A DNA stretch of 64,000 bases from Apostichopus japonicus. Lineage: Eukaryota; Echinodermata; Holothuroidea; Aspidochirotida; Stichopodidae. Where the stretch lies: NCBI RefSeq assembly GCF_037975245.1, contig NC_092569.1, positions 37,198,168 through 37,262,167 on the forward strand, given 5' to 3'. Of the stretch, positions 1-54,500 are shown piece after piece. Positions within the stretch are counted from its first letter, which is position 1, and each line of letters begins with the position of its first letter. The notes beneath the pieces were generated by a model. That model did not search any database. It saw nothing but the letters and a program-made list of their open reading frames with translations, and had not been told where the DNA came from. A program made the position numbers and the translations under genes.

Positions 1-61
1 GTTACTACAGTACTAGCTATAAACCAGTGTCAATACTCCCAGGGAGTTACTGCAGTACTAA

Positions 62-3000: not shown

Positions 3001-6000
3001 TATACAACATATTGTACTACTGTATGCTGCACAAACAAACAGCAGTATGACAGCTGAATTACTATCTAGTTCACCACACCATGTACATTATTATTTAACA
3101 ATAGCTTTATATTATGTGTTTCTACCCCTGCAGTATATACAACATATTGTACAACTGTATGCTGCACAAACAAACAGCAGTATGACAGCTGAATTACTAT
3201 CTAGTTCACCACACCATGTACATTATTATTTAACAATAGCTTTATATTATGTGTTTCTACCCCTGCAGTATATACAACATATTGTACTACTGTATGCCGC
3301 ACAAACAAACAGCAGTATGACAGCTGACTTACTATCTAGTTCACCACACCATGTACATTATTATTTAACAATAGTTTTATATTATGTGTTTCTACACCTG
3401 CAGTATATACAACATATTGTACTACTGTATGCCGCACAAACAAACAGCAGTATGACAGCTGACTTACTATCTAGTTCACCACACCATGTACATTATTATT
3501 TAACAATAGTTTTATATTATGTGTTTCTACCCCTGCAGTATATACAACATATTGTACTACTGTATGCCGCACAAACAAACAGCAGTATGACAGCTGAATT
3601 ACTATCTAGTTCACCACACCATGTACATTATTATTTAACAATAGCTTTATATTATGTGTTTCTACCCCTGCAGTATATACAACATATTGTACTACTGTAT
3701 GCCGCACAAACAAACAGCAGTATGACAGCTGAATTACTATCTAGTTCACCACACCATGTACATTATTATTTAACAATAGCTTTATATTATGTGTTTCTAC
3801 CCCTGCAGTATATACAACATATTGTACAACTGTATGCTGCACAAACAAACAGCAGTATGACAGCTGAATTACTATCTAGTTCACCACACCATGTACATTA
3901 TTATTTAACAATAGCTTTATATTATGTGTTTCTACCCCTGCAGTATATACAACATATTGTACTACTGTATGCCGCACAAACAAACAGCAGTATGACAGCT
4001 GACTTACTATCTAGTTCACCACACCATGTACATTATTATTTAACAATAGTTTTATATTATGTGTTTCTACCCCTGCAGTATATACAACATATTGTACTAC
4101 TGTATGCCGCACAAACAAACAGCAGTATGACAGCTGAATTACTATCTAGTTCACCACACCATGTACATTATTATTTAACAATAGTTTTATATTATGTGTT
4201 TCTACCCCTGCAGTATATACAACATATTGTACTACTGTATGCCGCACAAACAAACAGCAGTATGACAGCTGAATTACTATCTAGTTCACCACACCATGTA
4301 CATTATTATTTAACAATAGCTTTATATTATGTGTTTCTACCCCTGCAGTATATACAACATATTGTACAACTGTATGCTGCACAAACAAACAGCAGTATTA
4401 CAGCTGAATTACTATCTAGTTCACCACACCATGTACATTATTATTTAACAATAGCTTTATATTATGTGTTTCTACCCCTGCAGTATATACAACATATTGT
4501 ACTACTGTATGCCGCACAAACAAACAGCAGTATGACAGCTGACTTACTATCTAGTTCACCACACCATGTACATTATTATTTAACAATAGTTTTATATTAT
4601 GTGTTTCTACCCCTGCAGTATATACAACATATTGTACTACTGTATGCCGCACAAACAAACAGCAGTATGACAGCTGAATTACTATCTAGTTCACCACACC
4701 ATGTACATTATTATTTAACAATAGCTTTATATTATGTGTTTCTACCCCTGCAGTATATACAACATATTGTACTACTGTATGCCGCACAAACAAACAGCAG
4801 TATGACAGCTGAATTACTATCTAGTTCACCACACCATGTACATTATTATTTAACAATAGCTTTATATTATGTGTTTCTACCCCTGCAGTATATACAACAT
4901 ATTGTACTACTGTATGCCGCACAAACAAACAGCAGTATGACAGCTGAATTACTATCTAGTTCACCACACCATGTACATTATTATTTAACAATAGCTTTAT
5001 ATTATGTGTTTCTACCCCTGCAGTATATACAACATATTGTACAACTGTATGCTGCACAAACAAACAGCAGTATGACAGCTGAATTACTATCTAGTTCACC
5101 ACACCATGTACATTATTATTTAACAATAGCTTTATATTATGTGTTTCTACCCCTGCAGTATATGCAACATATTGTACAACTGTATGCTGCACAAACAAAC
5201 AGCAGTATGACAGCTGAATTACTATCTAGTTCACCACACCATGTACATTATTATTTAACAATAGCTTTATATTATGTGTTTCTACCCCTGCAGTATATAC
5301 AACATATTGTACTACTGTATGCCGCACAAACAAACAGCAGTATGACAGCTGAATGACTATCTAGTTCACCACACCATGTACATTATTATTTAACAATAGC
5401 TTTATATTATGTGTTTCTACCCCTGCAGTATATACAACATATTGTACTACTGTATGCCGCACAAACAAACAGCAGTATGACAGCTGAATTACTATCTAGT
5501 TCACCACACCATGTACATTATTATTTAACAATAGCTTTATATTATGTGTTTCTACCCCTGCAGTATATACAACATATTGTACAACTGTATGCTGCACAAA
5601 CAAACAGCAGTATGACAGCTGAATTACTATCTAGTTCACCACACCATGTACATTATTATTTAACAATAGCTTTATATTATGTGTTTCTACCCCTGCAGTA
5701 TATACAACATATTGTACAACTGTATGCTGCACAAACAAACAGCAGTATGACAGCTGAATTACTATCTAGTTCACCACACCATGTACATTATTATTTAACA
5801 ATAGTTTTATATTATGTGTTTCTACCCCTGCAGTATATACAACATATTGTACTACTGTATGCCGCACAAACAAACAGCAGTATGACAGCTGAATTACTAT
5901 CTAGTTCACCACACCATGTACATTATTATTTAACAATAGTTTTATATTATGTGTTTCTACCCCTGCAGTATATACAACATATTGTACTACTGTATGCCGC

Positions 6001-7068
6001 ACAAACAAACAGCAGTATGACAGCTGAATTACTATCTAGTTCACCACACCATGTACATTATTATTTAACAATAGCTTTATATTATGTGTTTCTACCCCTG
6101 CAGTATATACAACATATTGTACTACTGTATGCTGCACAAACAAACAGCAGTATGACAGCTGAATTACTATCTAGTTCACCACACCATGTACATTATTATT
6201 TAACAATAGCTTTATATTATGTGTTTCTACCCCTGCAGTATATACAACATATTGTACTACTGTATGCCGCACAAACAAACAGCAGTATGACAGCTGAATT
6301 ACTATCTAGTTCACCACACCATGTACATTATTATTTAACAATAGCTTTATATTATGTGTTTCTACCCCTGCAGTATATACAACATATTGTACTACTGTAT
6401 GCCGCACAAACAAACAGCAGTATGACAGCTGACTTACTATCTAGTTCACCACACCATGTACATTATTATTTAACAATAGCTTTATATTATGTGTTTCTAC
6501 CCCTGCAGTATATACAACATATTGTACAACTGTATGCCGCACAAACAAACAGCAGTATGACAGCTGAATGACTATCTAGTTCACCACACCATGTACATTA
6601 TTATTTAACAATAGTTTTATATTATGTGTTTCTACCCCTGCAGTATATACAACATATTGTACAACTGTATGCCGCACAAACCAACAGCAGTATGACAGCT
6701 GAATTACTATCTAGTTCACCACACCATGTACATTATTATTTAACAATAGCTTTATATTATGTGTTTCTACCCCTGCAGTATATACAACATATTGTACAAC
6801 TGTATGCCGCACAAACAAACAGCAGTATGACAGCTGAATTACTATCTAGTTCACCACACCATGTACATTATTATTTAACAATAGCTTTATATTATGTGTT
6901 TCTACCCCTGCAGTATATACAACATATTGTACAACTGTATGCCGCACAAACCAACAGCAGTATGACAGCTGAATTACTATCTAGTTCACCACACCATGTA
7001 CATTATTATTTAACAATAGTTTTATATTATGTGTTTCTACCCCTGCAGTATATACAACATATTGTACT
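62..7068. repeat. 135-bp tandem satellite, about 52 copies
   Basis: About 52 head-to-tail copies of a 135-bp unit, each with a PstI-like CTGCAG site. Copies differ at a handful of diagnostic positions, such as GCTGAAT versus GCTGACT and GTACTACTG versus GTACAACTG. Because 135 is a multiple of three, one plus frame stays open wherever the T of GAATTAC is not mutated to G (GAATGAC, stop). This gives long repetitive open frames, the longest 2171-5356. There is no unique coding sequence, start context or splice structure around them, so I treat the array as non-coding. From about 2.7 to 5.1 kb the variants follow a four-unit (540-bp) higher-order order. If DSCC1 continues to the left, the array sits in one of its introns. 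Confidence 0.95.
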
Positions 7069-7207
7069 AATCATGATTTCTGAATTTGGTGAACAATTAC
7101 AAGATCTAAGCAATGGAACTAGTTAACCTTTTGATTTAGAAATACCATCAAGGAGCACTTGTAAACAATTGAAATATTCTGATCAGTCTACAAAGCTGTA
7201 TTATAAC

Positions 7208-10958: not shown

Positions 10959-13900
10959 CTAAAACCAGAGAAGAAAAATGGTCTATTATTACTTTCATCA
11001 CTGTAGTATTCAATCCTATGGGCCCATGGAATTGTTTTACGGTTTGATCACTGTAGTATTCAAACCATCAATCCTATGGGTCCATGGAATTGTTTTATGT
11101 TTTGATCACTATAGTATTCAATACATCAATCCTATGGGCCCATGGAATTGTTTTATGTTTTGATCACTGTAGTGTTCAATACATCAATCCTATGGGCCCA
11201 TGGAATTGTTTTACGTTTTGATCACTGTAGTAGTCAATACATCAATCCTATGGGCCCTAGGAATTGTTTTGTTTTGATCACTGTAGTATTCAATACATCT
11301 ATCCTATGGACCCATGGAATTGTTTTGTTTTGATCACTATAGTATTCAATACATCAATTCTATGGGCCCATGGAATTGTTTTGTTTTGATCACTGTAGTG
11401 TTCAATACATCAATCCTATGGGCCCATGGAATTGTTTTACGTTTTGATCACTGTAGTAGTCAATACATCAATCCTATGGGCCCTAGGAATTGTTTTATGT
11501 TTTGATCACTGTAGTATTCAATACATCTATCCTATGGACCCATGGAATTGTTATGTTTTGATCACTGTAGTATTCAATACATCAATCCTATGGGCCCATG
11601 GAATTGTTTTATTTTTGATCACTGTAGTATTCAATACATCAATCCTATGGGCCCATGGAATTGTTTTATTTTTGATCACTGTAGTATTCAATACATCAAT
11701 CCTATGGGCCCATGGAATTGTTTTATGTTTTGATCACTGTAGTATTCAATACATCAATCCTATGGTCCCATGGAATTTTTTTTTTCGACCTCTGTAATAT
11801 CAATGTATATAAATACCATAGCCAGTAGCTGATGTTTAATAACATTGGTCTATAATTACTTTTAATGACTGTAATAATAAATGTATCGATACTATTGCCC
11901 CAAGTTGCTGATTAAAAGGATGATTCTACCTTGGTTTTAAAAGTCTGTTCTAATCCTTGTTGATATTAACCCTATGGCCCATGCTGGTATTGACTACTGT
12001 AAAGCTCAGTGTAAGTCATTAATTTCATACTTACTCTACGTTGTGATCTTACCATTAACACAACAAGCCCTTAGTTTCTTCAGTTCAGCCCTTATTTCTT
12101 TCTGACTGGCCTGAACTACATCTAAGAGATCATTGTCAGTAAACTTAGGACCTGAGTGACTAGGACTGTCTTCATAGAGATCACCAGCATAAACATTTTG
12201 CTCCAATAAGTGCTGTAGCTTCTGTACTCTCGGTCGCATGGTGCGTAGTTCATAATATTCATGAGCTAATGCTTGTACCTGTGGCAATGTAGAATGTGAA
12301 ATATTTATCCACTGTTTGGTGCCATTGTCTTAAAATTTACAAGAACCTGACAACTACAGAACCTTTTAGGTAAATGTAATGTCCATGCATATCTTCTATT
12401 GCATGTCAGGTCATGTATTATCAATGAAAGAAGAACCTGACAACTACAGAAACTTTTAGGTAAATGTAATGTCCATGCATATCTTCTATTGCATGTCAGG
12501 TCATGTATTATCAATGAAAGAAGAACCTGACAACTACAGAAACTTTTAGGTAAATGTAATGTCCATGCATATCTTCTATTGCATGTCAGGTCATGTATTA
12601 TCATTGAAAGAAGAACCTGACAACTACAGAACCTTTTAGGTAAATGTAATGTCCATGCATATCTTCTATTGCATGTCAGGTCATGTATTATCAATGAAAG
12701 AAGAACATGACAACTACAGAACCTTTTAGGTAAATGTAATGTCCATGCATATCTTCTATTGCATGTCAGGTCATGTATTATCATTGAAAGAAGAACCTGA
12801 CAACTACAGAACCTTTTAGGTAAATGTAATGTCCATGCATATCTTCTATTGCATGTCAGGTCATGTATTATCATTGAAAGAAGAACCTGACAACTACAGA
12901 ACCTTTTAGGTAAATGTAATGTCCATGCATATCTTCTACTGCATGTCAGGTCATGTATTATCAATGAAAGAAGAACCTGACAACTACAGAACCTTTTAGG
13001 TAAATGTAATGTCCATGCACATCTTCTATTGCATGTCAGGTCATGTATTATCAATGAAAGAAGAACCTGACAACTACAGAACCTTTTAGGTAAATGTAAT
13101 GTCCATGCATATCTTCTACTGCATGTCAGGTCATGTATTATCATTGAAAGAAGAACCTGACAACTACAGAACCTTTTAGGTAAATGTAATGTCCATGCAT
13201 ATCTTCTATTGCATGTCAGGTCATGTATTATCAATGAAAGAAGAACCTGACAACTACAGAACCTTTTAGGTAAATGGAAATGTCCATGCATATCTTCTAT
13301 TGCATGTCAGGTCATGTATTATCATTGAAAGAAGAACCTGACAACTACAGAACCTTTTAGGTAAATGTAATGTCCATGCATATCTTCTATTGCATGTCAG
13401 GTCATGTATTATCATTGAAAGGCTGATTGACACAAGAAGACCATACATATAGTGAGAACAGACGGAACAAGGCCATACATATAGTGAGAACAGAGGGAAC
13501 AAGGCCATACATATAGTGAGAACTGACGGAACAAGGCCATACATATAGTGAGAACAGAGGGAACAAGGCCATACATATAGTGAGAACAGAGGGAACAAGA
13601 GCATACATATAGTGAGTAAGCTTTATACATTTCACTTACTGTTATCATACATGAATAGAGGTAATGTCAATATCATACTTAATTATGAATTGAACCGGTC
13701 ACCACTGAAACAGTACAAGAAAAACCAGAGGGAAACCACTCCCAGCAGTTACTTGCCTTTAAATACATTACATATGCAACACATGAGTAGTTTGCAAGCT
13801 AACCTGAGTTGAAGTTCATACTGCAGATGGATAGCAGTATAAATCTAAACCGAGTTAGTGCTTACATGGTTTAATTACATATGCAACACATGAGTAGTTT

Positions 13901-23886: not shown

Positions 23887-25790
23887 ACAAACCTCTTGGG
23901 GAGAAAGTTACTTGCAGCACTAGTCATTCAAGTGAATGTTGGGAATGTGAACTATATGTCCATAGATAGCATTGTAACTAAGTATACCAAGGTATTTGCA
24001 GATGAACTGGGTTCCATAAAGGGAGTAAAAGCCGAGCTTCACATTCAGGAGGAGACAACAGTCTTCAAGGCCCGTTCTCTGCTCATCTGCCTTGAAACCC
24101 AAGGTCGAGGAAGATTTGCAACGTTTGTAGGATGCTGGGGTCATTAAACCAGTCCAATTCTGTAGGTGGGCTGCCCCAATAGTCCAGTGTTTAAACCCGA
24201 TGGAACCATTAGGATTTGTGGAGATTATAAGACTACAGTAAATGTAGCAGCTGAAACTGCTGGTATACCTTTTACCGCGTGTGGAAGATCTGTTTGCTCA
24301 GTTATCAGGAGGTAAAACATTCTCGAAACTTGATCTAAACCATGCTTATCAACAGGTATAATTAGAGGAGAACTCCCAAAAGTATATATGTTACCATAAA
24401 CACATACCAGGCTTCCGTTTGGTGTTGCATCCGCTCCATCGATATTTCAGAGAATTATTGATAGTTTGATACAGGATATCCCTCATATTGTTGGATATCT
24501 TGATGATATTTTGGTAACAGGAAAGACAGAAGCTGAACATCAGGCAACCTAGACACATTCTTAAGATTTGAAGAGTATGGTATCCGACTCAAACCACAGA
24601 AGTGCAGTGCATTTAATGTACGTATAGCATTGTTACATATTTGAGTCATGTATATTGGTGAAAATGGTCTCAGACAAACAGATGAAAATATAAGAGCAGT
24701 CAAACTGGAGGCACATGCTCCTACTAGTGTCACAGATATCAGGGAGCTGCTAGCTCCCTGCAGATATGAACGCCTACTTTGATATGTATATAAACTACTA
24801 TGGTCGTTTTCCACCTTCCTTTTCTACCGTGCTAGCACCATTACACAGTTTTCTAAGACAAGGTGTTTAGTGGGAATGGCCCTCACTACAACAATGTGTT
24901 TAGTGGGAATGACCCTCTCCACAAAAAGGTGTTTTTGAGAAATGCAAGGAACTTCTACTGAATGCTGATATTTGGTACATTACGACCCACTAAAACCAGT
25001 TATTCTGTCATGTGATGCGTCTCCATACGTACGGCGCGCGCGGGGTCTGTTCTGTTACATCGTTATCGTATGCCAAATGCATGATCAGAAAGACCTGTCT
25101 GTTAATTCGCATCTCGATCCTTATCTAAGGTAGAAAGAGGTTATTCTCAAATAGACAAAGAGGGTCTCAGTGTGATATATGGTGTTCAGAAATATCACCA
25201 GTATGTTTGGTATAGTTCACAATCCTCACAGACCACCAGCCGCTAAAATGTTTGTATATATGGTGAAGGATCGTGCAGTGCCACCAATAGCTGCAGCTAG
25301 AATAATTCACTCACCTTGTCGGCTTATACAACTATAAAGTATAAGCTTGTGTACGAGCCAGGTTCAAAGCATTGTAATGTCGATGCTTTGTGAAGGGTTC
25401 CTCTAAAGGATGAACCAGCCCATGTTTCAATTCCGGCTTATCTCATTTTACTGATGGATTACCTAAATGATAGACCAGTCAGTCATCGGGACATAAAGAA
25501 GTGGACCAGACATGGACCCACTTTTGTCCCAAGAATTGTGTTTTACAGGTTGGGCTTCACATTGCATGTGATCAAGAGGATTTTAAAACCATATTTCAGT
25601 AGGAAATCTGAATTAAGTGTACATGCTGCATGGTTGCATAATGTGGGGCAACAGAGTTGCTATACCCCCACAAGACAGGGAATTAGTTCTAAAGGAACTA
25701 AACATTCTGAGCATCCGGGGACTTCCAGGATGAAATCCCTAGCTCGGAGTTATGTATAGTGGGCCAAAATGGACCACCTGACTTGCGGCT

Positions 25791-27339: not shown

Positions 27340-27543
27340 ATGGCGGAAGAGGTAGAAATCCTACAGTCCGGATCAACTGAATTGAACCTTACGTTAAACG
27401 AAACAGAAGGTGCCGTAAATGGAACGAAAATACAATCTACACCAGAAGGAATGGCCATTGCGTACGGTAGTTTAGTCCTGATGGCTATACTTCCTATATT
27501 CTTTGGGGCATTCCGATCTGTTAAATTTCACAAGGAACAGAAG
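27340..27543 (+). CDS. HM13: SPP exon 1
   Basis: 68 codons. It holds the acidic lumenal N-terminus with three NxT sequons, then the first membrane segment (MAIAYGSLVLMAILPIFFGA) and FRSVKFHKEQK. The donor is GTATAC and the exon ends in phase 0. Confidence 0.95.
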
Positions 27544-30500: not shown

Positions 30501-33500
30501 TGATATTGCTGTGTGTTATACCAGATCTTTTAGATGTGTGGTTATTCTGTGATACTGCTGTGTGTTATACCAGATCCTTTAGATGTGTGATTATTTTGTG
30601 ATACTGCTGTGTGTTATCCCAGATCCATTAGATGTGTGATTATTCTGTGATATTGCTGTGTGTTATACCAGATCCTTTAGATGTGTGGTTAATCTGTGAT
30701 ACTGCTGTGTGTTATCCCAGATCCATTAGATGTGTGGTTATTCTGTGATACTGCTGTGTGTTATACCAGATCCTTTAGATGTGTGATTATTCTGTGATAC
30801 TGCTGTGTGTTATCCCAGATCCTTTAGATGTGTGGTTAATCTGTGATACTGCTGTGTGTTATCCCAGATCCTTTAGATGTGTGATTATTCTGTGATATTG
30901 CTGTGTGTTATCCCAGATCCTTTAGATGTGTGGTTAATCTGTGATACTGCTGTGTGTTATCCCAGATCCATTTGATGTGTGATTATTTTGTGATATTGCT
31001 GTGTGTTATACCAGATCCTTTAGATGTGTGGTTAATCTGTGATACTGCTGTGTGTTATACCAGATCCTTTAGATGTGTGATTATTCTGTGATACTGCTGT
31101 GTGTTATACCAGATCCATTAGATGTGTGGTTAATCTGTGATACTGCTGTGTGTTATACCAGATCCTTTAGATGTGTGATTATTCTGTGATACTGCTGTGT
31201 GTTATACCAGATCCTTTAGATGTGTGGTTAATCTGTGATATTGCTGTGTGTTATCCCAGATCCATTAGATGTGTGATTATTCTGTGTCATTGCTGTGTGT
31301 TATACCAGATCCTTTAGATGTGTGATTATTCTGTGATATTGCTGTGTGTTATCCCTGATCCATTAGATGTGTGATTATTCTGTGATATTGCTGTGTGTTA
31401 TCTCAGATCCTTTAGATGTGTGATTATTCTGTGATATTGCTGTGTGTTATCCCAGATCCATTAGATGTGTGATAATTCTGTGATATTGCTGTGTGTTATC
31501 CCAGATCCATTAGATGTGTGCTTATTTTGTGATACTGCTGTGTGTTATCCCAGATCCATTAGATGTGTGATAATTCTGTGATATTGCTGTGTGTTATACC
31601 AGATCCTTTAGATGTGTGGTAAATCTGTGATACTGCTGTGTGTTATCCCAGATCCTTTAGATGTGTGATTATTCTGTGATACTGCTGTGTGTTATCCCAG
31701 ATCCTTTAGATGTGTGATTATTCTGTGATATTGCTGTGTGTTATACCAGATCCATTAGATGTGTGATTAATCTGTGATACTGCTGTGTGTTATACCAGAT
31801 CCTTTAGATGTGTGATTATTCTGTGATACTGCTGTGTGTTATCCCAGATCCATTAGATGTGTGATAATTCTGTGATATTGCTGTGTGTTATCCCAGATCC
31901 TTTAGATGTGTGATTATTTTGTGATATTGCTGTGTGTTATCCCAGATCCTTTAGATGTGTGCTTATTTTGTGATACTGCTGTGTGTTATCCCAGATCCAT
32001 TAGATGTGTGATAATTCTGTGATATTGCTGTGTGTTATCCCAGATCCATTAGATGTGTGATTAATCTGTGATACTGCTGTGTGTTATCCCAAATCCATTA
32101 CTTGTGTGATTATTCTGTGATACTGCTGTACAGTATGTTATCCCAGATCCAATAGATGTGTGATTATTCTGTGATACTGGCGTATGGTATCCCATATCCA
32201 GTGATCATTGAGCTATCAATTGGTGGGACTTGAACTTCACGTGTTGACTTCATATTTATAATTGAGATGCTTGCATAAAGCCCATTGAAATGTTATAAAT
32301 GTAGTACTGCTTTAAATATTCCATAACGGAAGCACCAACTGTACAGTAGTGACATTTTGCCAACATTCAATCGAATATTAAATATATAAAACACAATTTG
32401 GTATTACACAAAATAGGATTGCTACTGATGAAAGGAAGACACCCTCCTGGTGGAAGATGAGCAAGTAATTCATGAATTTGATTAAACTCTCACTAACCTG
32501 CCCGTACACTTTTCACATTACTGTAGTATAATATAATACTTGCAATCTGAGCAGATTGGAATTGGACTTCTTTATTCTTCTAACTACTCCTATAAATTCT
32601 GGCTTCATTATTTGACATAAATCTTGATGCAAGAAAAAAAACTTATTTTGAAAACTCAATAGTATTAAAAAAATTAACATATAACCCAGAAAAGCTCATC
32701 TAAAAGTGCGTTTATGTTTTGAAAGTGCAAGGAAGATAAATTGTGATTTTAACATAAATTCTGGATGTATCATACAGGCTGTTGGCATATTCTCTATTAG
32801 TTGTGTGTTTGGCTTTGTGGCTCTTGTGTCTATGTACAGCCATTTGAAATTGCAAAGAGTGCATTTAGTATTTTAATCTTTAATACTGTACAGTAGGTTT
32901 TTAAATTGTGAAATAAAGTTCTGTATACCGTTGAGCTAATCCATATCTGTTGTTTTTATTATAGGATAATGGTGATACGCCAGAGGTAATGTCTGACAAG
33001 GATGCTGCAATGTTTCCGATCATTGCCAGTGCTACCCTGTTTGGAATCTATGTGATCTTCCAGGTAATGACCTAATCCTAAATACACTACATGCAATGTT
33101 TCCCATCATTGCCAGTGCAACCCTGTTTGGAATCTATGTGATCTTCCAGGTAATGACCTAATCTAAATACACTACATGCAATGTTTCCCATCATTGCCAG
33201 TGCAACCCTGTTTGGAATCTATGATATCTTCCAGGTAATGACCTAACCCTAAATACACTACATGCAATGTTTCCGATCATTGCCAGTGCTACCCTGTTTG
33301 GAATCTATGTGATCTTCCAGGTAATTACCTAATCCTAAATACACTACATGCAATGTTTCCCATCATTGCCAGTGCTATCCTGTTTGGAATCTATGTGATC
33401 TTCCAGGTAATTACCTAATCCTAAATACACTACATGCAATGTTTCCGATCATTGCCAGTGCTATCCTGTTTGGAATCTATGATATCTTCCAGGTAATGAC

Positions 33501-36500
33501 CTAATCCTAAATACACTACATGCAATGTTTCCCATCATTGCCAGTGCAACCCTGTTTGGAATCTATGTGATCTTCCAGGTAATGACCTAACCCTAAATAC
33601 ACTACATGCAATGTTTCCCATCATTGCCAGTGCTATCCTGTTTGGAATCTATGATATCTTCCAGGTAATGACCTAATCCTAAATACACTACATGCAATGT
33701 TTCCCATCATTGCCAGTGCAACCCTGTTTGGAATCTATGTGATCTTCCAGGTAATGACCTAACCCTAAATACACTACATGCAATGTTTCCCATCATTGCC
33801 AGTGCTATCCTGTTTGGAATCTATGATATCTTCCAGGTAATGACCTAATCCTAAATACACTACATGCAATGTTTCCCATCATTGCCAGTGCAACCCTGTT
33901 TGGAATCTATGTGATCTTCCAGGTAATTACCTAATCCTAAATACACTACATGCAATGTTTCCGATCATTGCCAGTGCTATCCTGTTTGGAATCTATGATA
34001 TCTTCCAGGTAATGACCTAATCCTAAATACACTACATGCAATGTTTCCCATCATTGCCAGTGCAACCCTGTTTGGAATCTATGTGATCTTCCAGGTAATG
34101 ACCTAACCCTAAATACACTACATGCAATGTTTCCCATCATTGCCAGTGCTATCCTGTTTGGAATCTATGATATCTTCCAGGTAATGACCTAATCCTAAAT
34201 ACACTACATGCAATGTTTCCCATCATTGCCAGTGCAACCCTGTTTGGAATCTATGTGATCTTCCAGGTAATGACCTAACCCTAAATACACTACATGCAAT
34301 GTTTCCCATCATTGCCAGTGCTATCCTGTTTGGAATCTATGTGATCTTCCAGGTAATGACCTAATCCTAAATACACTACATGCAATGTTTCCCATCATTG
34401 CCAGTGCTACCCTGTTTGGAATCTATGTGATCTTCCAGGTAATGACCTAACTCTAAATACACTGCATGCAATGTCATGCTTGTTACTGTCATCATCAAAT
34501 GCTGTAGTTTATTAGTCAGCAGACCATAGTGCTAGCCTTTACCCACAGCCTGATGCCATGATACCATGCTTTAGTTTGCTCCTCTGTGATGCAATTAAAT
34601 ACATTAGTGTTAAATAAATGTCTCAAACGAAGTACAGTCTTAGCCAATCAAAATAGCGGTCAACACAAAATGTTAATGTTACAAAAACATTGGGATGATG
34701 CCAAGGTCCCACAGTACATGAATTCCCACAGAGTTAAAGTATTATGCTGATAAGCAAGCTGCATGAAAGTTGACAACTGCTTGTATTGGTCCAGGCCCAA
34801 AACATGTTTCAAATTAGGTTGTTTTACTGGAAATCTAGGGCAGACAACTGCATGAGCTACATTTGTATAAAGCAAATAAAATGGACATGAACAGTGGTGT
34901 TTACACGGGTCCAAAAATCGGGAACCTGGTACCCAAGAGCTGTTACCCGTTTGGTATCCGGGTACCCAGAAAAAATGTTTACCCTCGTGTATCACGGTTT
35001 TCAAGAAATTACATATTGGATGCTATAATAAATGAAATATATTCCCTACTGACAATTTTTTCATGTTCAAATACGTAGGTGTAAGATAAGGTATAAAACC
35101 TTCCTCATAATTTCTATTTGCTTTTGTTTCTTCCATTAACTTGTAAATAACTTCATATAATTAACATTACTACTTACATCGCACTGCCGCCGCTGCTTAT
35201 GCTTGCTCTCCACGTCTATTGGATCAGACCATATAAATATCCAATTTAGCTCTTGAACAGTTGTTACTACTACTATCTATTATGTTCGCATTAGCCGTGA
35301 AATTGCAGGATTCGCGCAATTTGAATGCATTTGGAATTAACGATAAGTAAAGAGCCACTTGCGATTATTATTTTTTGGTTATTCCGTTGTAATCCATAAA
35401 CATCTCGTAAAATTCCTTGTCAGCTTTCCTTCTATGAAATAAACGAATGAATAAATAATTATTTCTTCCACATGGTAGCCTAACACCACATTAAGTCAAT
35501 GAGAAATCTAGCTAAGCCTAACCATCTGTTTATTTCGCTGAAATTGTGACGCAGTTATAAGATATCCATGGAATACTTTCATTACTGCTGTTACGTTCGA
35601 CCACATGGTTGTCTAACACCACACTAAGTCAGGGGTAATCTAGCCTAGCCATCTGTTTATTAGCTGAAATTTGTGACGCAGTCATAAGATAACAATGGAA
35701 TACTTTCGTTATTGCTGTTATCTTCCACCACATGGTAGCCTATCACCACACTAAGTCCATGGGAAATCTGCCTAACCATTGGTTTGCCAAAAAAAAAAAA
35801 AAACACACTTTGCATAGGATTCGGGTAATAAATTAGGAACCGGGTAGTATCGCGTCGGGCGGGTACCTTAGTTATTGCTGTTATCTTCGACCACATGGTA
35901 GCCGAACACCACACTATGTCAATGGGAAATCTGCCTAACCGTCGGTTTGCCATTTTTTTTTTAAATCACAGTTTGCGTAGGATTCGGGTAATAAATTAGG
36001 AATCGGGTAGTATCGCGTCGGGCGGGTACCATAGTTATTACTGTTATCTTCGACCACATGGTAGCTGAACACCACACTATGTCAATGGAAATCTGCCTTA
36101 CCGTTGGTTTGCCATTTTTTTTTAAACCACAGTTTGCGTAGGATTCGGGTAATAAACTAAGAACCGGGTAGTATCGCGTCGGGCGGGTACCCGGATAACC
36201 CATGCAAACACTAATGTACAGAGTACAGATCCAAGTGGCCCATCCTGGGACCTAGATTACCAGGGCATTCTTTTTGCTGCAGAAAAGAAAACAGCGCAGC
36301 AGAAGATTTGTATACTGAGGGTCTCATTACTGGGAACTGCATCTATATAAGTACTGTATATATGTATAAACTCAGTCAGGAACACTTTCACATTGATTTA
36401 CTCATTTACAGGAACGTTATTGCCTTGTTATTTCCGTTATTTAATGTGAGTGTAAGAATGGAGAGAGGGGATAGTTGGAAGAAACAGTACCATTCATAAT

Positions 36501-42500: not shown

Positions 42501-45500
42501 TGTACAGTATCTGTTGCTCTAAACATTAGTTTTTTTTGTTATTGGACATAGCATTTTACCTACATTACTGGTAGTGCTTGCACATGGTCAGATAAGTAAA
42601 TTGATAAGTTACGCACATTGTATATACACTGCACGATAACTACTTCTAAGTGGCCTAGCTTTTCATTTCCATGTATAAAGCTGTTCGTAAAACAGTCATT
42701 GAACAATCCTGTGTGAAAGAATACCATATTTCATAGCAGAGTAGGCGTTGAGTTTCTTGACAAGTATCTCATCGTGGTCAGTGTGTCATCTCTGTTGTCA
42801 AAACTTTCCAAACTCTTCACTCCTCTATTGAAATATGGTGACTTGTGTCATGGTTGATGCACAATATTGTTTTTTGGAGAAAATAAAGAGTAATAATTTG
42901 CACCTATTTTCTTTGCAGATATTTTCCAAAGAGTACATAAACATTTTGCTCACAGTCTACTTTCTCTTCCTGGGTGTTCTCTCTTTGGCTCATATAGCTG
43001 GGTAAGATATTTGTTTTCTTTGATTCATAGCTGGGTAAGATATTTGTTTTCTTTGATTCATAGCTGGGTAAGATATTTGTTTTCTTTGATTCATAGCTGG
43101 GTAAGATATTTGTTTTCTTTGATTCATAGCTGGGTAAGATATATGTTTTCCTTTATTCATAGCTGGGTAAGATATGTTTCTTTGATTCATAGCTGGGTAA
43201 GATTTGTTTGATATCATTGATTCATAGCTGGGTAAGATATCTTTGATATGTTTGATTCATAGCTGGGTAAGATATGTTTGATTCATATCTGGGTAAGATA
43301 TCTTTGATATGTTCGATTCATATCTGGGTAAGATATGTTTGATTCATATCTGGGTAAGATATGTTTGATTCATAGCTGGGGAAGATATGTTTGATTCATA
43401 GCTGGGTAAGATATGTTTGATATCATTGATTCATAGCTGGGTAAGATATCTTTGATATGTTTGATTCATAGCTGGGTAAGATATGTTTGATTCATATCTG
43501 GGTAAGATATCTTTGATATGTTCGATTCATAGCTGGGTAAGATATGTTTGATTCATATCTGGGTAAGATATGTTTGATTCATAGCTGGGTAAGATATGTT
43601 TGATTCATAGCTGGGTAATATATGTTTGATTCATAGCTGGGTAAGATGTGTTTTTTTTTCTCTTATTCATAGCTGGGTAAGATATGTTTGATTCATAGCT
43701 GGGGAAGATATGTTTGATTCATAGCTGGGTAAGATATGTTTGATTCATAGCTGGGTAAGATGTGTTTTTTTTTCTCTTATTCATAGCTGGGTAAGATATG
43801 TTTGATTCATAGCTGGGGAAGATATGTTTGATTCATAGCTGGGTAAGATATGTTTGATTCATAGCTGGGTAAGATATGTTTGATTCATAGCTGGGTAAGA
43901 TATGTTTGATTCATAGCTGGGTAAGATATGTTTGATTCATAGCTGGGTAAGATATGTTTGATTCATAGCTGGGTAAGATATGTTTGATTCATAGCTGGGT
44001 AAGATATCTTTGATTTATAGCTTGGTAAGATATCTTTGATTCATAGATGGGTAAGATGTGTTTGTAGTTCTTGTTCATAGCTGGGTAAGATATGTTATAG
44101 CTGGGTATGATATATTTGATACCTTTGATTCATAGCTGAGTAAGATTTGTTTGTTGTTCTTGTTCATAGCTGGGTAAGATATGTTATAGCTGGGTAAGAT
44201 ATGTTTGATACCTTTGATTCATAGCTGAGTAAGAATTGTTGTTCTTGTTCATAGCTGGGTAAAGATATATTTGATATCTTTGATTCATAGCTGGGTAAGA
44301 TATGTTTGATATCTTTGATTCATAGCTGGGTAAGATATGTTTGATATCTTTGATTCATAGCTGGGTAAAGATATGTTTATTGTTCTTGGTCATACTGTAG
44401 CTGAGTAAAATTTGTTTGTTGTTGTTCATAGCTGGTCAAGATATATGTTTTTGTTGATACACAACTGTAGCTATTTAAGATATATCTTACAATGTTTGGA
44501 TCGCTTTAATTGTTAGTTACTGTTTATGGGGTAGGCTCTATGGGTCATGGGATGTTCAATTGCTGAGAACTAGGACCTTAAAAGTCAAGAAAATGTCAAA
44601 ATGCTACATGGCCGGCAGATTGCAAAGTTTCAAAATTGTCATAAATTGAATAAAAATAAAAGCAATGCAACTCAACTTTCCAACTACAGTATGCTTATTT
44701 TATGGTACTCTTATCATGGAATTTTGGTAATTTTTTAGAGGAGGCTGCAGATTTGGAATGACCCATATGTTTGTTACCTTTGATACACGTTCAGATAAGA
44801 CAGGTTTGCAATCTATGATTCATATATGTAGCTTGGTACGATGTGTAGTTCATGTTTGTTTAATCATACTGGGAAGGTATGTTTGTTGGCTCATGTAGCT
44901 GGGTAAGATATTTTACTTACCTTTGATACATATCTGGGCAAGATAAATTTGTTACATTTGATCAATAGGTTGATGAGCTAAAAGCATAAAAGTTATATTA
45001 CAGTAGATTACAAGCTGGGTTGAATATATCTGTGTCTTGGGTCTTATTGAATAGTAGGGTGCTGTAGATGGTAGCTACTTTAATCTTGGATGCAACATAA
45101 GTGTCGTAAAGACATCCCAGAAGTTATACTGAAATTGAAGAGGCCTGAATGGAATGATATAAGTCAGTGGCATATAAGTTTCATTTTGGAAAGTGGATCA
45201 AAATGTCTGTGGAATACATATATACTATATCACACAAAGACTATCACTGTAGATCAGAGCCTTCATTTTCTCTTTCAGTCCCTACGTAAGACGTTTCATT
45301 CCTGGGATTGTTCCCAATGAAGATTACCACCTACTGTTAACGTCAGGCACAGCAGAAAAAAAGGAAGGTAATTGGAAAAGCCCACAGACTGCTTTTATCA
45401 TGTCATAACAGGATAACGGCCATACTCTTATCAGGATAGTGATTTATCTGAGGCATAATACAGTAGAATCATGCAGGTAGTGAGTCCTGTCTCTGCGGTA

Positions 45501-48500
45501 CCTAGAGTAGATATAAGCAGTGAGTCCTGTATCTGTGGTATGGTAGATACAGGTAGTGAGTCCTGTCTCTGCGGTACCTAGAGTAGATATAAGCAGTGAG
45601 TCCTGTATCTGTGGTGTGGTAGATACAGGCAGAGAGTCCTGTCTCTGCGGTACCTAGAGTAGATATAAGCAGTGAGTCCTGTATCTGTGGTATGGTAGAT
45701 ACAGGTAGTGTTTCCTGTATCTGTGGTATGGTAGATACAGGCAGTGAGTCCTGTATCTGTGGTATGGTAGATACAGGCAGTGAGTACTGTATCTGTGGTA
45801 CCTAGAGTAGATATAAGCATTGAGTCCTGTATCTGTGGTATGGTAGATAAAGGCAGTGAGTCCTGTATCTGTGGTATGGTAGATACAGGTAGTGTTTCCT
45901 GTATCTGTGGTATGGTAGATACAGGCAGTGAGTCCTGTATCTGTGGTACCTAGAGTAGATATAAGCATTGAGTCCTGTATCTGTGGTATGGTAGATAAAG
46001 GCAGTGAGTCCTGTATCTGTGGTTTGGTAGATACAGGTAGTGAGTCCTGTATCTGTGGTATGGTAGATACAGGTAGTGAGTCCTGTCTCTGCGGTACCTA
46101 GAGTAGATATAAGCATTGAGTCCTGTATCTGTGGTATGGTAGATAAAGGCAGTGAGTCCTGTATCTGTGGTATGGTAGATACAGGTAGTGAGTCCTGTAT
46201 CTGTGGTACATATGGTAGATAAAGGCAGTGAGTCCTTTATCTGTGGTATGGAAGATACAGGTAGTGAGTCCTGTATCTGTGGTATGGTATATAAAGGCAG
46301 TGAGTCCTGTATCTGTGGTATGGTAGATACAGGTAGTGAGTCCTGTATCTGTGGTATGGTAGATACAGGTAGTGAGTCCTGTATCTGTGGTATGGTAGAT
46401 AAAGGCAGTGAGTCCTGTATCTGTGGTATGGTAGATACCTGTTGCACCTGGGTATGATAGATACTTGGCTGCAATGGATGTACAGTAACCATTACAGTGC
46501 TGACTTCTAGTCAATGTGCATATTCTAGTCATTAAAATTGTTTTCATATTTTCAGTAGAGAATGAATGGCAAGCAGGACTCATTGAAGATATTAACTATA
46601 ACATTCTCTCTACTTTGTGCTCACTTGCTTTACAGAACTGATGAATTACAACTTTGACTACAAAGACCTTATCAATTTAGCCCTATGTGGAGTGTTTGGA
46701 GCCTGGTATCTCTTTCAGAAAGTGAGTGCCATCGAAACTTTTGATTTACTTCAATGACTTTATGTTTGATTCCTTGCCGAAATATAAAATCGTTTCTCTG
46801 TCAAACGCTATATTAGCAATCTCATACTTTGAAGACGTGTTTGAAAAATTGTTTATCGTTTTTTAAGGTAACTTCTAAGGGCTATCTTCTAAGGGAATCT
46901 CACATTTAGCCTGCGATGTGGTTGCCCCATATTATCCTCTTGAGTGTGACAGTTGATGTGAATCTCACATTTAGCATGCGATGTGGTTGCCCCATATTAT
47001 CCTCTTGAGTGCGACAGTTTATGTGAATCTCACATTTAGCCTGCGATGTGGTTGCCCCATATTATCCTCTTGAGTGTGACAGTTGATGTGAATCTCACAT
47101 TTAGCATGCGATGTGGTTGCCCCATATTATCCTCTTGAGTGCGACAGTTTATGTGAATCTCACATTTAGCCTGCGATGTGGTTGCCCCATATTATCCTCT
47201 TGAGTGCGACAGTTTATGTGAATCTCACATTTAGCATGCGATGTGAATGCTCCATATTATCCTCTTGAGTGTGACAGTTTATGTGAATCTCACATTTAGC
47301 ATGCGATGTGAATGCTCCATATTATCCTCTTGAGTGTGATAGTTTATGTGAATTTCACATTTAGCATGCGATGTGAATGCTCCATATTATCCTCTTGAGT
47401 GTGATAGTTTATGTGAATTTCACATTTAGCATGTGATGTGAATGCCCCATATTATCTTCTGAGTTTGAAAGGTTACATGAATGGCCTGAAGGCCCCATTT
47501 TTAGTATGAGATGATGGGTGTCATAATTGGCAACATGTAACCAAAATATGCACAAAAGCACACATGTCAGAAAGGAAGGAGCATTTTGTTTGCTAGCTGT
47601 ATTCCCTTGGTCAACTATTAATGCCAGACTTCATTTAACAGTCATAGATATAAAGTAACATTTCTTTATTGTTTTTCTCTTTTGAGCAGCACTGGATCGC
47701 CAACAACATATTTGGTCTGGCCTTTGCTCTGAATGGAATTGAATTCTTGCAGCTAAATACTGTTATGACTGGATGTATATTACTGGGTGGTCTCTTCTTC
47801 TATGATATTTTCTGGGTCTTTGGTACCAATGTAATGGTAACAGTAGCCAAGAGCTTTGAAGCCCCAATTAAGTGTAAGTAACTAGTCATGATTCAAGTAT
47901 TATAATAGAATGCAATTCTACCTATGGTATTAGTTGCATGAGTTGATTCCTATCAGAATTAGACACTCATGGTGGTGTCTACTCCTTAGCTTCCATTGTT
48001 GCACATCTTTCAGAAAACAGCCAGGCAAGCTGGTTTTTTATTCCTGGCCGGATATATGACTTATCTGTCATCAACTTTCAGATTGGTAATTGCAATGATC
48101 AAGTTATCTAGAACTAGCATATGATGTTCTGGTACTTGACTTCAGGACACATCTTCCTCTGTTGCTCTATCAGTGAATTGATTCCATTATAAACTTCTAA
48201 CAGTATACAATATAAGGAATACAGCATACAGTATAAACAAGGCAAAGGAATTAACAGTATAAGGAATACAGCATACAGTATAAACAAGGCAAAGGAATTA
48301 ACAATATAAGGAATACAGCATACAGTATAAACAAGGCAAAGGAATTAACAATATAAGGAATACAGCATACAGTATAAACAAGGCAAAGGAATTAACAATA
48401 TAAGGAATACAGCATACAGTATAAACAAGGCAAAGGAATTAACAATATAAAGAATACAGCATACAGTATAAACAAGGCAAGAATACAGCATACAGTATAA

Positions 48501-51500
48501 ACAAGGCAAAGGAATTAACAATATAAGGAATACAGCATACAGTATAAACAAGGCAAAGGAATTAACAATATAAAGAATACAGCATACAGTATAAACAAGG
48601 CAAGAATACAGCATACAGTATAAACAAGGCAAAGGAATTAACAATATAAAGAATACAGCATACAGTATAAACAAGGCAAAGGAATTAACAATATAAGGAA
48701 TACAGCATACAGTATAAACAAGGCAAAGGAATTAACAATATAAGGAATACAGCATACAGAATAAACAAGGCAAAGGAATTAACAATATAAGGAATACAGC
48801 ATACAGTATAAACAAGGCAAAGGAATTAACAATATAAGGAATACAGCATACAGTATAAACAAGGCAAAGGAATTAACAATATAAGGAATACAGCATACAG
48901 TATAAACAAGGCAAAGGAATTAACAATATAAGGAATACAGCATACAGTATAAACAAGGCAAAGGAATTAACAATATAAGGAATACAGCATACAGTATAAA
49001 CAAGGCAAAGGAATTAACAATATAAAGAATACAGCATACAGAATAAACAAGGCAAAGGAATTAACAATATAAGGAATACAGCATACAGTATAAACAAGGC
49101 AAAGGAATTAACAATATAAGGAATACAGCATACAGTATAAACAAGACAAAGGAATTAACAATATAAGGAATACAGCATACAGTATAAACAAGGCAAAGGA
49201 ATTAACAATATAAGGAATACAGCATACAGTATAAACAAGGCAAAGGAATTAACAATATAAAGAATACAGCATACAGAATAAAAAAGGCAAAGGAATTAAC
49301 AATATAAGGAATACAGCATACAGTATAAACAAGGCAAAGGAATTAACAATATAAGGAATACAGCATACAGTATAAACAAGGCAAAGGAATTAACAATATA
49401 AGGAATACAGCATACAGTATAAACAAGGCAAAGGAATTAACAATATAAGGAATACAGCATACAGTATAAACAAGGCAAAGGAATTAACAATATAAGGAAT
49501 ACAGCATACAGAATAAACAAGGCAAAGGAATTAACAATATAAGGAATACAGCATACAGTATAAACAAGGCAAAGGAATTAACAATATAAGGAATACAGCA
49601 TACAGTATAAACAAGGCAAAGGAATTAACAATATAAAGAATACAGCATACAGTATAAACAAGGCAAAGGAATTAACAATATAAGGAATACAGCATACAGT
49701 ATAAACAAGGCAAAGGAATTAACAATATAAGGAATACAGCATACAGTATAAACAAGGCAAAGGAATTAACAATATAAGGAATACAGCATACAGTATAAAC
49801 AAGGCAAAGGAATTAACAATATAAGGAATACAGCATACAGAATAAACAAGGCAAAGGAATTAACAATATAAGGAATACAGCATACAGTATAAACAAGGCA
49901 AAGGAATTAACAATATAAGGAATACAGCATACAGTATAAACAAGACAAAGGAATTAAGAATATAAGGAATACAGCATACAGTATAAACAAGGCAAAGGAA
50001 TTAACAATATAAAGAATACAGTATAAACAAGGCAAAGGAATTAACAATATAAGGAATACAGCATACAGTATAAACAAGGCAAAGGAATTAACAATATAAG
50101 GAATACAGCATACAGTATAAACAAGGCAAAGGAATTAACAATATAAGGAATACAGCATACAGTATAAACAAGGCAAAGGAATTAACAATATAAGGAATAC
50201 AGCATACAGAATAAACAAGGCAAAGGAATTAACAATATAAGGAATACAGCATACAGTATAAACAAGGCAAAGGAATTAACAATATAAGGAATACAGCATA
50301 CAGTATAAACAAGGCAAAGGAATTAACAATATAAGGAATACAGCATACAGAATAAACAAGGCAAAGGAATTAACAATATAAGGAATACAGCATACAGTAT
50401 AAACAAGGCAAAGGAATTAACAATATAAGGAATACAGCATACAGTATAAACAAGGCAAAGGAATTACTAAGCCGACTGACTTTGTGCTTCTACATTTTTA
50501 CGAACCAAAAAAATTTGCTGTTGGGACAACAAAACGTGAGACCTGGTTGACCCCCACAGAAGAAATTCATAAAATATTTGCCCTGACCTGTATCCAAGTA
50601 ATCTTAGGAGCAAGATTGGAAAAATATTGGCATTTTCAACAATAACAACCACCACCACAAATGTCATATGAATGGATATGCATTGTTCACTTGAAATTAA
50701 AGGTATTAATTCACTCTCAGCTTTATATTTTGTTATGATCTGATTTTACCTTACACACATCATCCATTTATGTGTGAATGATACATGTCTTTCAAATATG
50801 CAGAGTTATAACCCAACACAAATTGCAGCTTTAAAATGTCTTATAATATCATTGACTACTTAGGCTTAAACACAGGGGGCTAAGTGACTTCCACATTTCA
50901 AACATGTAAAATAGTAATCTGTTATTTGGTCGTCATTAAATTCTGTGAGTCTCCATCTGTCACAGGAGTTTCAGGTTCGTCTCTATCCCAAAGCCTAAGC
51001 TACGGATAGTCCATTATGTACACTAACTCTGTTTCATGGGTTTGTCTTTCATTTTTAGTGGTTTTTCCACAAGACTTGCTGGAAAATGGTCTTGAAGCTA
51101 ACAACTTTGCAATGCTTGGCCTTGGAGATATTGTGATACCTGGGATTTTCATTGCATTATTGTTGCGTTATGATGTCAGGTGTGTATGCAATTTGTTTGG
51201 CATTTTACCTACTTTGTCAGCTATACACAAAACTTTATTGTCATTAGCTGTGAAGGTTTAATATGTAATTTAGCTGTGTAGGTGTCATGTTTACTAGTAA
51301 TGTATGCTTGACATGTACTTAGCTGTAAAGTAGCAATATAGTAGATATGATTTGCATTTGTATGTTCTTTTACACAGCAAGAAGAAGTCCAACACATATT
51401 TTTACACCGGGTTTATTGCCTATCTTCTTGGCCTTCTGATGACGATTGGAGTTATGCATTTCTTCAAGCATGCACAACCTGCCCTCTTATACCTGGTTCC

Positions 51501-54500
51501 TGCATGTATAGGTCTGCCACTCTTTGTGGCATTACTGAAAGGAGAGGTAAAACAGATCTTGCTGTAAGTATCCACCATGCTACACATAGACCTATACAGA
51601 TCAATAGCTTGTTATTAGTATCCACCATGTGTAGTGCTACACATAGACCTATATAGATCAATAGCTCGTTATTAGTATCCACCACGTGTAGTGCTACACA
51701 TAGACCTATATAGATCAATAGCTTGTTATTAGTATCCACCATGTGTAGTGCTACACATAGACCTATATAGATCAATAGCTCGTTATTAGTATCCACCACG
51801 TGTAGTGCTACACATAGACCTATATAGATCAATAGCTTGTTATTAGTATCCACCACGTGTAGTGCTACACATAGATCTATTCAGATCAATAGCTTGTTAT
51901 TAGTATCCACCATGTGTAGTGCTACACATAGACCTATATAGATCAATAGCTCGTTATAAGTATCCACCATGTGTAGTGATACACATAGACCTATATAGAT
52001 CAATAGCTTGTTATTAGTATCCACCATGTGTAGTGCTACACATAGACCTATACAGATCAATAGCTTGTTATTAGTATCCACCATGTGTAGTGCTACACAT
52101 AGACCTATACAGATCAATAGCTTGTTATTAGTATCCACCATGTGTAGTGCTACACATAGACCTATTCAGATCAATAGCTTGTTATTAGTATCCACCACGT
52201 GTAGTGCTACACATAGATCTATTCAGATCAATAGCTTGTTATTAGTATCCACCATGTGTAGTGCTACACATAGACCTATATAGATCAATAGCTCGTTATA
52301 AGTATCCACCACGTGTAGTGCTACACATAGACCTATATAGATCAATAGCTTGTTATTAGTATCCACCATGTGTAGTGCTACACATAGACCTATACAGATC
52401 AATAGCTTGTTATTAGTATCCACCATGTGTAGTGCTACACATAGACCTATAAAGATCAATAGCTTGTTATTAGTATCCACCACGTGTAGTGCTACACATA
52501 GACCTATACAGATCAATAGCTTGTTATTAGTATCCACCACGTGTAGTGCTACACATAGACCTATATAGATCAATAGCTTGTTATTAGTATCCACCACGTG
52601 TAGTGCTGCACATAGATCTATTCAGATCAATAGCTTGTTATTAGCATCCACCATGTGTAGTGCTACACATAGACCTATATAGATCAATAGCTTGTTATTA
52701 GTATCCACCACGTGTAGTGCTACACATAGACCTATATAGATCAATAGCTTGTTATTAGTATCCACCACGTGTAGTGCTACACATAGCTCTATTCAGATCA
52801 ATAGCTTGTTATTAGTATCCACCATGTGTAGTGCTACACATAGACCTATATAGATCAATAGCTTGTTATTAGTATCCACCATGTGTAGTGCTACACATAG
52901 ACCTATATAGATCAATAGCTCGTTATTAGTATCCACCACGTGTAGTGCTACACATAGATCTATTCAGATCAATAGCTTGTTATTAGTATCCACCATGTGT
53001 AGTGCTACACATAGACCTATATAGATCAATAGCTTGTTATTAGTATCCACCACGTGTAGTGCTACACATAGACATATACAGATCAATAGCTTGTTATTAG
53101 TATCCACCACGTGTAGTGCTACACATAGACCTATATAGATCAATAGCTTGTTATTAGTATCCACCATGTGTAGTGCTACACATTTCTCTGAGCCTAGCAT
53201 CGTTACCTTATTTGTCTGTTGCAATGTTTCATAACTGTACATCAGTCCCTATCATGTACAATGTAACTGACACAATCTGCGGACAATGGCACTAGCATGT
53301 TTTATCACTCTTCAGATCTATTCTTTAGGGCCCTATGTTTTAATTTTGGATTTGGAAGATTGCATATAGTTCAAAAGCTGAACACTTTACAACTGTAGTA
53401 ACTCAGAAGCATACCATTCAGATTGTCTGGTGGAAGGTCTTGATACATTGTCCTCATAGTTGCTATTTTTCTCTTTCTAACCATGTGAAAATTGTCCCCA
53501 TTCGACATCTCTCCTTGTAGAAAACTGATTTTCAAATTCACCAGTTTCTCACCAAAAAAAAAAAATGAATGACGTAACGCGGGTGAATAGGTAAAACGAG
53601 CGACTTGACATTAGCACTCCCATTTCGGCAATAAATACACTCTTGCATGTACACGCACAGGTGATTGCCTATTATATATGACATAGACATTGCGAACGTA
53701 TACAGCCGACCATACCCAGTTGGTACGTACATAGCATTGCACATCACACTCAAACCACAGTTCATAAACCATTCTACCCTAACCCTAACACATTCTACAC
53801 AGTTCACACAGTTTGCACCACTCTTTTCTGTGTCAGGAATAGCAACAACTTCATTTTCTCTCCCTTTTCGTTCACGCATCCACGCGAATTACTACATCTT
53901 AATGTCTGGCACTGAGGCATCGTTCCACACAAGGCCTTAGCTAACCTGCCTAGTTGAATGTAGTACAGGGAAGGTTAGGCCTTAGCTAACCTGCCTAGTT
54001 GAATGTAGTACAGGGAAGGTTAGGCCTTAGCTAACCTGCCTAGTTGAATGTAGTACAGGGAAGGTTAGGCTTCGTAGAACTGTCCAATTGTACAATTTAC
54101 AGTAGCATACAGCGCAATGTAAACAACTAAGAGTCTGCTGTTCAAACTTAGCTTGTGTTACACAAAGACCACGAAATCACTGATGCACTATATTAATAAC
54201 GGCTTAACATTTTTTTCAAAACATATCTAATTTATAAGACATGTCACAACAAATTAGGGAAGAAATTAATCTGTATTCAAACGCAGGTTTTGTTGTGATT
54301 ACTGTAGGAACTGAATGCAGAGTGGGTTATGTCACAATCTGCATTGCCCAGATGACCTCACGTTTGCTACTGTTCAAAGTATGTTTAGAATAGCTTTCCT
54401 TAACAATTAAAAAATTGTTTCTCTGTCAAACGCAACATTAGCATTCTCATACTTGGGAAATTGTTTATCGTTTTTTAAGGTAACTTGTACGGGCTAGGAG

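Follow-up and report, generated by a model that had tools for sequence, protein, structure and literature searches.

What decides where an exon ends when the sequence marking that end is repeated over and over just downstream? The question is raised by a stretch of the sea cucumber genome (Apostichopus japonicus, contig NC_092569.1, forward-strand positions 37,198,168 to 37,262,167; these 64,000 nucleotides are the window, in whose own numbering coordinates are given unless stated otherwise), in which a gene for signal peptide peptidase (SPP) carries an array of copies of the end of its second exon, each with a 5' splice site (donor). Comparable structures in amphioxus have been named mirages: minisatellite-like tandem duplications of exon–intron boundaries, described for Adh3, BflGb6, BflGb9, TnC and PGBD5 in two reports (PMC3087553, PMC3902484). 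We consider it probable, at roughly 0.8, that the array is a minisatellite of this type, that it originated by slippage or repair at a short direct repeat, TGCAATGT, that it is nearly neutral, and that its first donor is the one used.

Anatomy of the exon-2 array

The features on which the argument rests are as follows, with the basis of each in brackets; the array was delimited with Tandem Repeats Finder (TRF), and exon 2 was located by tblastn using a human HM13 query.

27340..27543, plus strand: SPP exon 1, with the ATG at 27340 (joined frame)
32965..33063, plus strand: SPP exon 2, 99 nt, beginning and ending in phase 0, with array unit 1 formed by the final 58 nt (sequence, tblastn, open joined frame)
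33006..34474, plus strand: exon-2 array, an 86-bp minisatellite of the mirage type, 17.1 copies (TRF, donor spacing, copy alignment)
33006..33013, plus strand: TGCAATGT, the direct repeat at the left edge of the array (sequence)
33064..33069, plus strand: authentic exon-2 donor, GTAATG (predicted gene structure)
34467..34474, plus strand: TGCAATGT, the direct repeat at the right edge of the array (sequence)
42919..43001, plus strand: SPP exon 3, donor TGG|GTAAGA, the bar marking the splice junction (joined frame)
45279..45367, plus strand: SPP exon 4 (joined frame)
46636..46721, plus strand: SPP exon 5 (joined frame)
47690..47873, plus strand: SPP exon 6, with the YD motif (joined frame)
51059..51179, plus strand: SPP exon 7, with the GLGD motif (joined frame)
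51378..51546, plus strand: SPP exon 8, with QPALLYLVP, ending at 51546 or 51563 (joined frame)

A first-pass annotation of the window had named SPP as the host gene, and the reconstruction agrees: exons 1–8 join in one frame with no stop, the partial exon join matches Pfam PF04258 (Peptidase_A22B) with an E value of 4.7e-35, exon 8 alone does so at 1.3e-20, and the sole match among solved structures is SPPL2A (E = 9.6e-5). The joined frame holds the motifs YD, GLGD and PAL, which we take to be those of signal peptide peptidases. Exons 1–8 were placed within the window, where the last exon or exons of SPP were not found; elsewhere in the genome, further A22B matches lie on contigs C15 and C4.

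Seventeen donors of the form CAG|GTAAT(G/T) stand between 33063 and 34438—the authentic end of exon 2 and 16 intronic copies—with the first lying directly after 33063 and the last directly after 34438. The corresponding starts of CAGGTAAT (n = 17) run from 33061 to 34436 at a spacing of 85–86 bp, and CAG|GTAAT is kept in all 17 units without a gap in that spacing. TRF calls the array at 33006–34474 with a period of 86, 17.1 copies and 94% matches; each 86-bp unit consists of 58 exonic bases from the end of exon 2 followed by 28 intronic ones, and the first unit is exon 2 itself (33006–33063, 58 bases). These results bear out the earlier description of sixteen tandem copies of the exon end and donor, of 17 near-identical donors within 1.4 kb and of 55–60 repeated coding bases, and they shift one detail: the array begins 58 bases ahead of the donor, at 33006, rather than at the donor. 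A search of the whole 671.6-Mb genome with the boundary sequence returned at least eight matches, and all those listed fall at the SPP locus.

Over their exonic part, the 16 intronic copies depart from exon 2 at 0–4 of 58 positions. Mean identity between units is higher at a lag of two (0.967) than at a lag of one (0.935), as expected from the 172-bp dimer that had been proposed as a step of amplification, and the inner copies mostly take two forms in alternation, GCAACC...GTGATC and GCTATC...GATATC. Copy 17, at the edge, has one difference from exon 2, being changed at just one of five variable exonic positions. The pattern is that of tandem-repeat turnover, in which inner units are homogenised and the edge copy is little altered; the exception is the internal copy 4, which equals exon 2 over all 58 bases.

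Both edges of the array carry the 8-bp direct repeat TGCAATGT (33006–33013 and 34467–34474), the arrangement that slippage or misaligned repair at short direct repeats would be expected to leave. We infer that, with one copy in exon 2 and the other further along intron 2, replication slippage or misaligned repair may have duplicated the exon end and its donor, and that the array would then have grown through exchanges involving either one unit or two, the latter corresponding to the 172-bp dimer. Proximity to the upstream acceptor favours the first of several donors. Of the donors that follow the exon-2 acceptor, the spliceosome would use the nearest and earliest transcribed one (33064), exclusively or nearly so, and the 16 decoys would thus remain part of intron 2, leaving the array close to neutral.

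Donor arrays elsewhere in SPP and in unrelated genes

The exon-2 array has a counterpart one exon downstream, and a further array lies close to the end of exon 8:

42992..44444, plus strand: exon-3 donor array, the exon copy plus 48 intronic copies of CATAGCTGG|GTAAGATAT, 20–40 bp apart (TRF, motif matching)
51550..53183, plus strand: 57-bp array whose start is no more than about 20 nt from the exon-8 donor (TRF)

Copies in the exon-3 array were counted at up to five mismatches; GG|GTAAG is intact in 36 of the 48 intronic copies, 37 sites (the real one counted) score at least as high as the real donor, and read-through past exon 3 meets an in-frame TAA immediately after the exon. An attempt to gauge constraint on the donor core of these copies proved unusable, since they had been picked by matching that core. 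The exon-8 array was considered as a third mirage and downgraded. The two candidate donors of that exon are GAG|GTAAAA (34th percentile of sampled donors) and, after 51563, GCT|GTAAGT (5th percentile); the array contains the donor only if GCT|GTAAGT is used, and GAG|GTAAAA outscores it, so that the better donor falls outside. No donor-like site above threshold was found in 51564–53300. SPP introns 1, 4, 5 and 6 carry arrays as well, distant from their donors.

Beyond SPP, the survey took in 137 exons belonging to three unrelated families (CCT, the best 30 of 57 matches; myosin, the best 30 of 70; kinesin, the first 77 of 126), whose edges were placed by scoring. A coverage test for arrays kept 124 donors and 125 acceptors, with three cpn60 loci consisting of one long open frame (L022, L025, L026) left out and the donors of L014 and L092 re-placed by hand. 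Arrays span 3 of the 124 donors and none of the 125 acceptors, counts too few for a claim of asymmetry:

L010, CCT gene: 46 bp x 11.8 donor array, at 16.4 of 21.4 Mb
L014, CCT gene: 31 bp x 38.7 donor array
L040, myosin gene: 53 bp x 17.4 donor array, at 24.0 of 29.6 Mb

When proximity is considered, arrays come nearer to donors than to acceptors. An array falls within the first 20, 50, 75 and 95 intronic bases of 3, 6, 7 and 8 of the 124 donors, and within the last 20, 50, 75 and 95 intronic bases of 1, 1, 1 and 1 of the 125 acceptors (Fisher p = 0.37, 0.066, 0.036 and 0.019, the four widths being non-independent tests on a modest sample). Under a stricter definition of arrays (at least 2.5 copies, before hand correction), five donors and no acceptors are crossed by an array or lie within 50 bases of one. 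Deeper in introns the donor side has no advantage: coverage is 13.4% on both the donor and the acceptor side at 500–900 bases, and 9.2% on the donor side versus 15.9% on the acceptor side at 900–1400 bases.

An echo test run on the same exons, after 12 of the 137 had been dropped on the donor side and 10 on the acceptor side, gave 9/125 donors and 0/127 acceptors at a score of 18 or more. Of ten donor cases scoring at least 16 that were inspected, L010, L014 and L040 proved to be true arrays; L028 and L061 each have a single tandem copy of an exon end, and the other five (L027, L062, L082, L091, L092) were weak, intronic-only or mis-called. Since most were not true arrays, the coverage test was relied on instead. 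We also set aside a genome-wide search for three occurrences of CAGGTAAG with 25–55 base gaps (458 matches versus 204 for the reversed pattern), in which the listed places are a few long arrays and the matches are non-independent. In the CCT gene L028 (contig C21), a single copy of at least 57 exonic bases from the exon end, without the donor, lies in the following intron; the myosin gene L061 (C13) has a perfect 50-base copy of the exon end in the following intron, donor included; and the kinesin gene L092 (C15) has a 21-bp x 14 array starting about 45 bases past the likely donor GGCAAT|GTAAGC.

Donor choice and competing explanations

Donor strength was scored with a table drawn up from 111 donors called in the same genome, in which the authentic exon-2 donor, CAG|GTAATG, attains 7.2 (20th percentile of sampled donors). 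Thirteen of the 16 decoys are identical to it in all nine bases, and across intron 2 as a whole 25 GT sites (the real donor itself counted) score at least as high, 17 of them inside the array. Because every decoy equals or outscores the real donor, strength is unable to pick out the real site, and position would have to do so. Near-neutrality of the array is suggested by the recurrence of donor arrays in unrelated genes, and by the amphioxus mirages, which are reported to leave regular splicing undisturbed (PMC3087553, PMC3902484).

Several observations weigh against this reading. The remaining three decoys, CAG|GTAATT, score 9.0 (48th percentile) and so exceed the true donor; ten acceptor-like sites within the array lie above the tenth percentile of sampled acceptors, those listed all being ATCTTCCAG|G, and would leave room for pseudo-splicing; of the amphioxus reports (PMC3087553, PMC3902484), the one on globins allows that mirage copies are possible cryptic sites; and the boundary-spanning arrays in the sampled genes are few, as noted above.

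The first and third of these, together with the concentration of competent GT sites in the array, would favour leakage into the decoys. Later donors would then be used, part of the array would be retained, and the transcript would run into an in-frame stop and be degraded, with copy number tuning SPP output. The first-pass annotation had suggested lower SPP output and nonsense-decay isoforms, as well as a U1 sink, and had put the stop where it is found: exon 2 ends in phase 0, and translation carried past it would run ...FQ V M T and then reach a TAA four codons beyond the exon. We nevertheless regard leakage as unlikely. Its short distance to the exon-2 acceptor favours the first donor, 3 of 124 donors sampled in unrelated genes of this genome also carry arrays, the exon-3 array would double the cost within one conserved gene, and mirages in amphioxus are reported to splice normally.

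Less probable still is a role for the array as a sink for the U1 small nuclear ribonucleoprotein, or, in a long A+T-rich intron, as a shield from premature polyadenylation. Seventeen donor-like sites per 1.4 kb, and 37 in the exon-3 array that score no lower than the real donor (itself counted), would suit such a role; the GTAATG donor, however, reaches only the 20th percentile, GG|GTAAG has been lost from 12 of 48 exon-3 copies, and the absence of above-threshold sites from 51564–53300 adds to the indication that not all arrays preserve their donors.

A ladder of recursive splicing, in which every ATCTTCCAG|GTAATG would serve as acceptor and donor side by side, seems to us very improbable. 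It could draw on the ten acceptor-like sites and on their density, which is 7.1 per kb in the array versus 1.8 per kb across the remainder of intron 2. Those listed are weak, however, at 7.1, close to the tenth percentile of sampled acceptors (6.6) and far below the median (10.1); their sequence is exonic and hence accounted for by the duplication; and the exon-3 array has GG rather than AG before its GT. Finally, the usual HiFi read is longer than 1.4 kb. Tandem arrays are difficult to assemble, but an assembly artefact is scarcely credible here, given that the copies bear distinct variants in order and that the genome agrees in size and scaffold count with a published A. japonicus assembly (PacBio HiFi, 671.60 Mb, 23 chromosomes of 18.21–46.02 Mb, 34 scaffolds; PMC10344927).

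Genomic setting, known systems and meaning

The surroundings of SPP are rich in tandem repeats, which at periods of 10 or more make up 47% of the window, compared with 8.7% at the CCT loci, 12.6% at the myosin loci and 2.2% at the kinesin loci, which were taken with short flanks. The exon-2 array belongs to a minisatellite process that recurs in the genome, is dense around SPP and is most likely neutral. Minisatellites are enriched in subtelomeric regions. Like such regions, the window abounds in tandem repeats and lies towards a contig end, stopping 202.6 kb (about 203 kb) short of the end of contig C9; the donor arrays at L010 and L040, by contrast, are situated well away from the ends of their contigs.

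Other observations concern the neighbourhood and the assembly. A 135-bp unit in about 52 copies (98% match) occupies 61–7069, beginning near the window edge and possibly extending beyond it. On the minus strand, an exon of DSCC1 (Dcc1, PF09724, E = 4e-17) lies at about 12053–12278, and a 90-bp x 12 array at 12341–13421 lies upstream, separated from its acceptor by about 62 bases, within the 95-base acceptor zone and without contact with the exon; most of this array is crossed by a 333-codon minus-strand frame. A fragment of retroelement reverse transcriptase (PF00078, E = 2.8e-10) was identified upstream of SPP at 24400–24552, and an Rfam scan of the window returned nothing at gathering scores. 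The unplaced contig C29 contains COX1 in four pieces and again, in part, on the minus strand (contig positions 14745–16086 and 30842–31219); the full-length COX1 match is on C35, and the C29 pieces are perhaps separately assembled mitochondrial reads or a nuclear copy. Judged by conserved COX1 residues, the gene on C35 makes sense only if AAA is read as Asn, AGA as Ser, ATA as Ile and TGA as Trp, which is the echinoderm code (NCBI table 9). This code decides against amphioxus, which the mirages had brought into consideration as the source; a search for GFP-family proteins gave no match, a result that falls short of demonstrating absence.

The SPP array is most likely of the kind already described in amphioxus, and an echinoderm case would be an extension. 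Both are minisatellite duplications across an exon–intron boundary with many copies of the splice signals, and in both the inner units are homogenised and the edge units less so. The differences are that the host is, by its mitochondrial code, an echinoderm rather than a cephalochordate; that SPP has 16 decoys, compared with 6 units in one haplotype of BflGb6 and 3 in the other (PMC3087553, PMC3902484); that SPP alone has two boundary arrays and one donor-adjacent array; and that among the sampled sea cucumber arrays those crossing a boundary are on the donor side only, whereas BflGb6 has an acceptor-side and BflGb9 a donor-side mirage. For the Adh3 mirage, somatic instability is reported (PMC3087553, PMC3902484). 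In the literature searched, mainly titles and the starts of abstracts, we found no mirages outside amphioxus, the human boundary repeats being a related case.

Introns derived from tandem arrays have reportedly been described by Zhuo in 2007. For human internal tandem repeats at exon–intron boundaries, one report describes novel introns or alternative transcripts (PMC2812944). These repeats are like the SPP array in that minisatellite expansion across a boundary can multiply splice sites, and unlike it in that such products are reported there, whereas alternative use of the SPP copies is hypothetical.

The SPP arrays illustrate how introns may grow by minisatellites right up to the coding edge. 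A broader proposal, which we offer tentatively and think rather doubtful, is that boundary-spanning minisatellites recur on the donor side only, extra downstream donors being ignored and acceptor arrays purged; this would amount to a natural experiment on a first-donor rule, with SPP (17 successive donors at exon 2 and 37 at exon 3) as an extreme case. Both the donor-side bias and SPP as a test of the first donor are worth following, the donor/acceptor asymmetry being the better lead. With donor copies that are identical or higher-scoring, strength is removed as a cue and position becomes the main candidate, making SPP a natural test of how the first among many identical donors is chosen; if its transcripts use the first donor only, this would support proximity or first-come choice in vivo.

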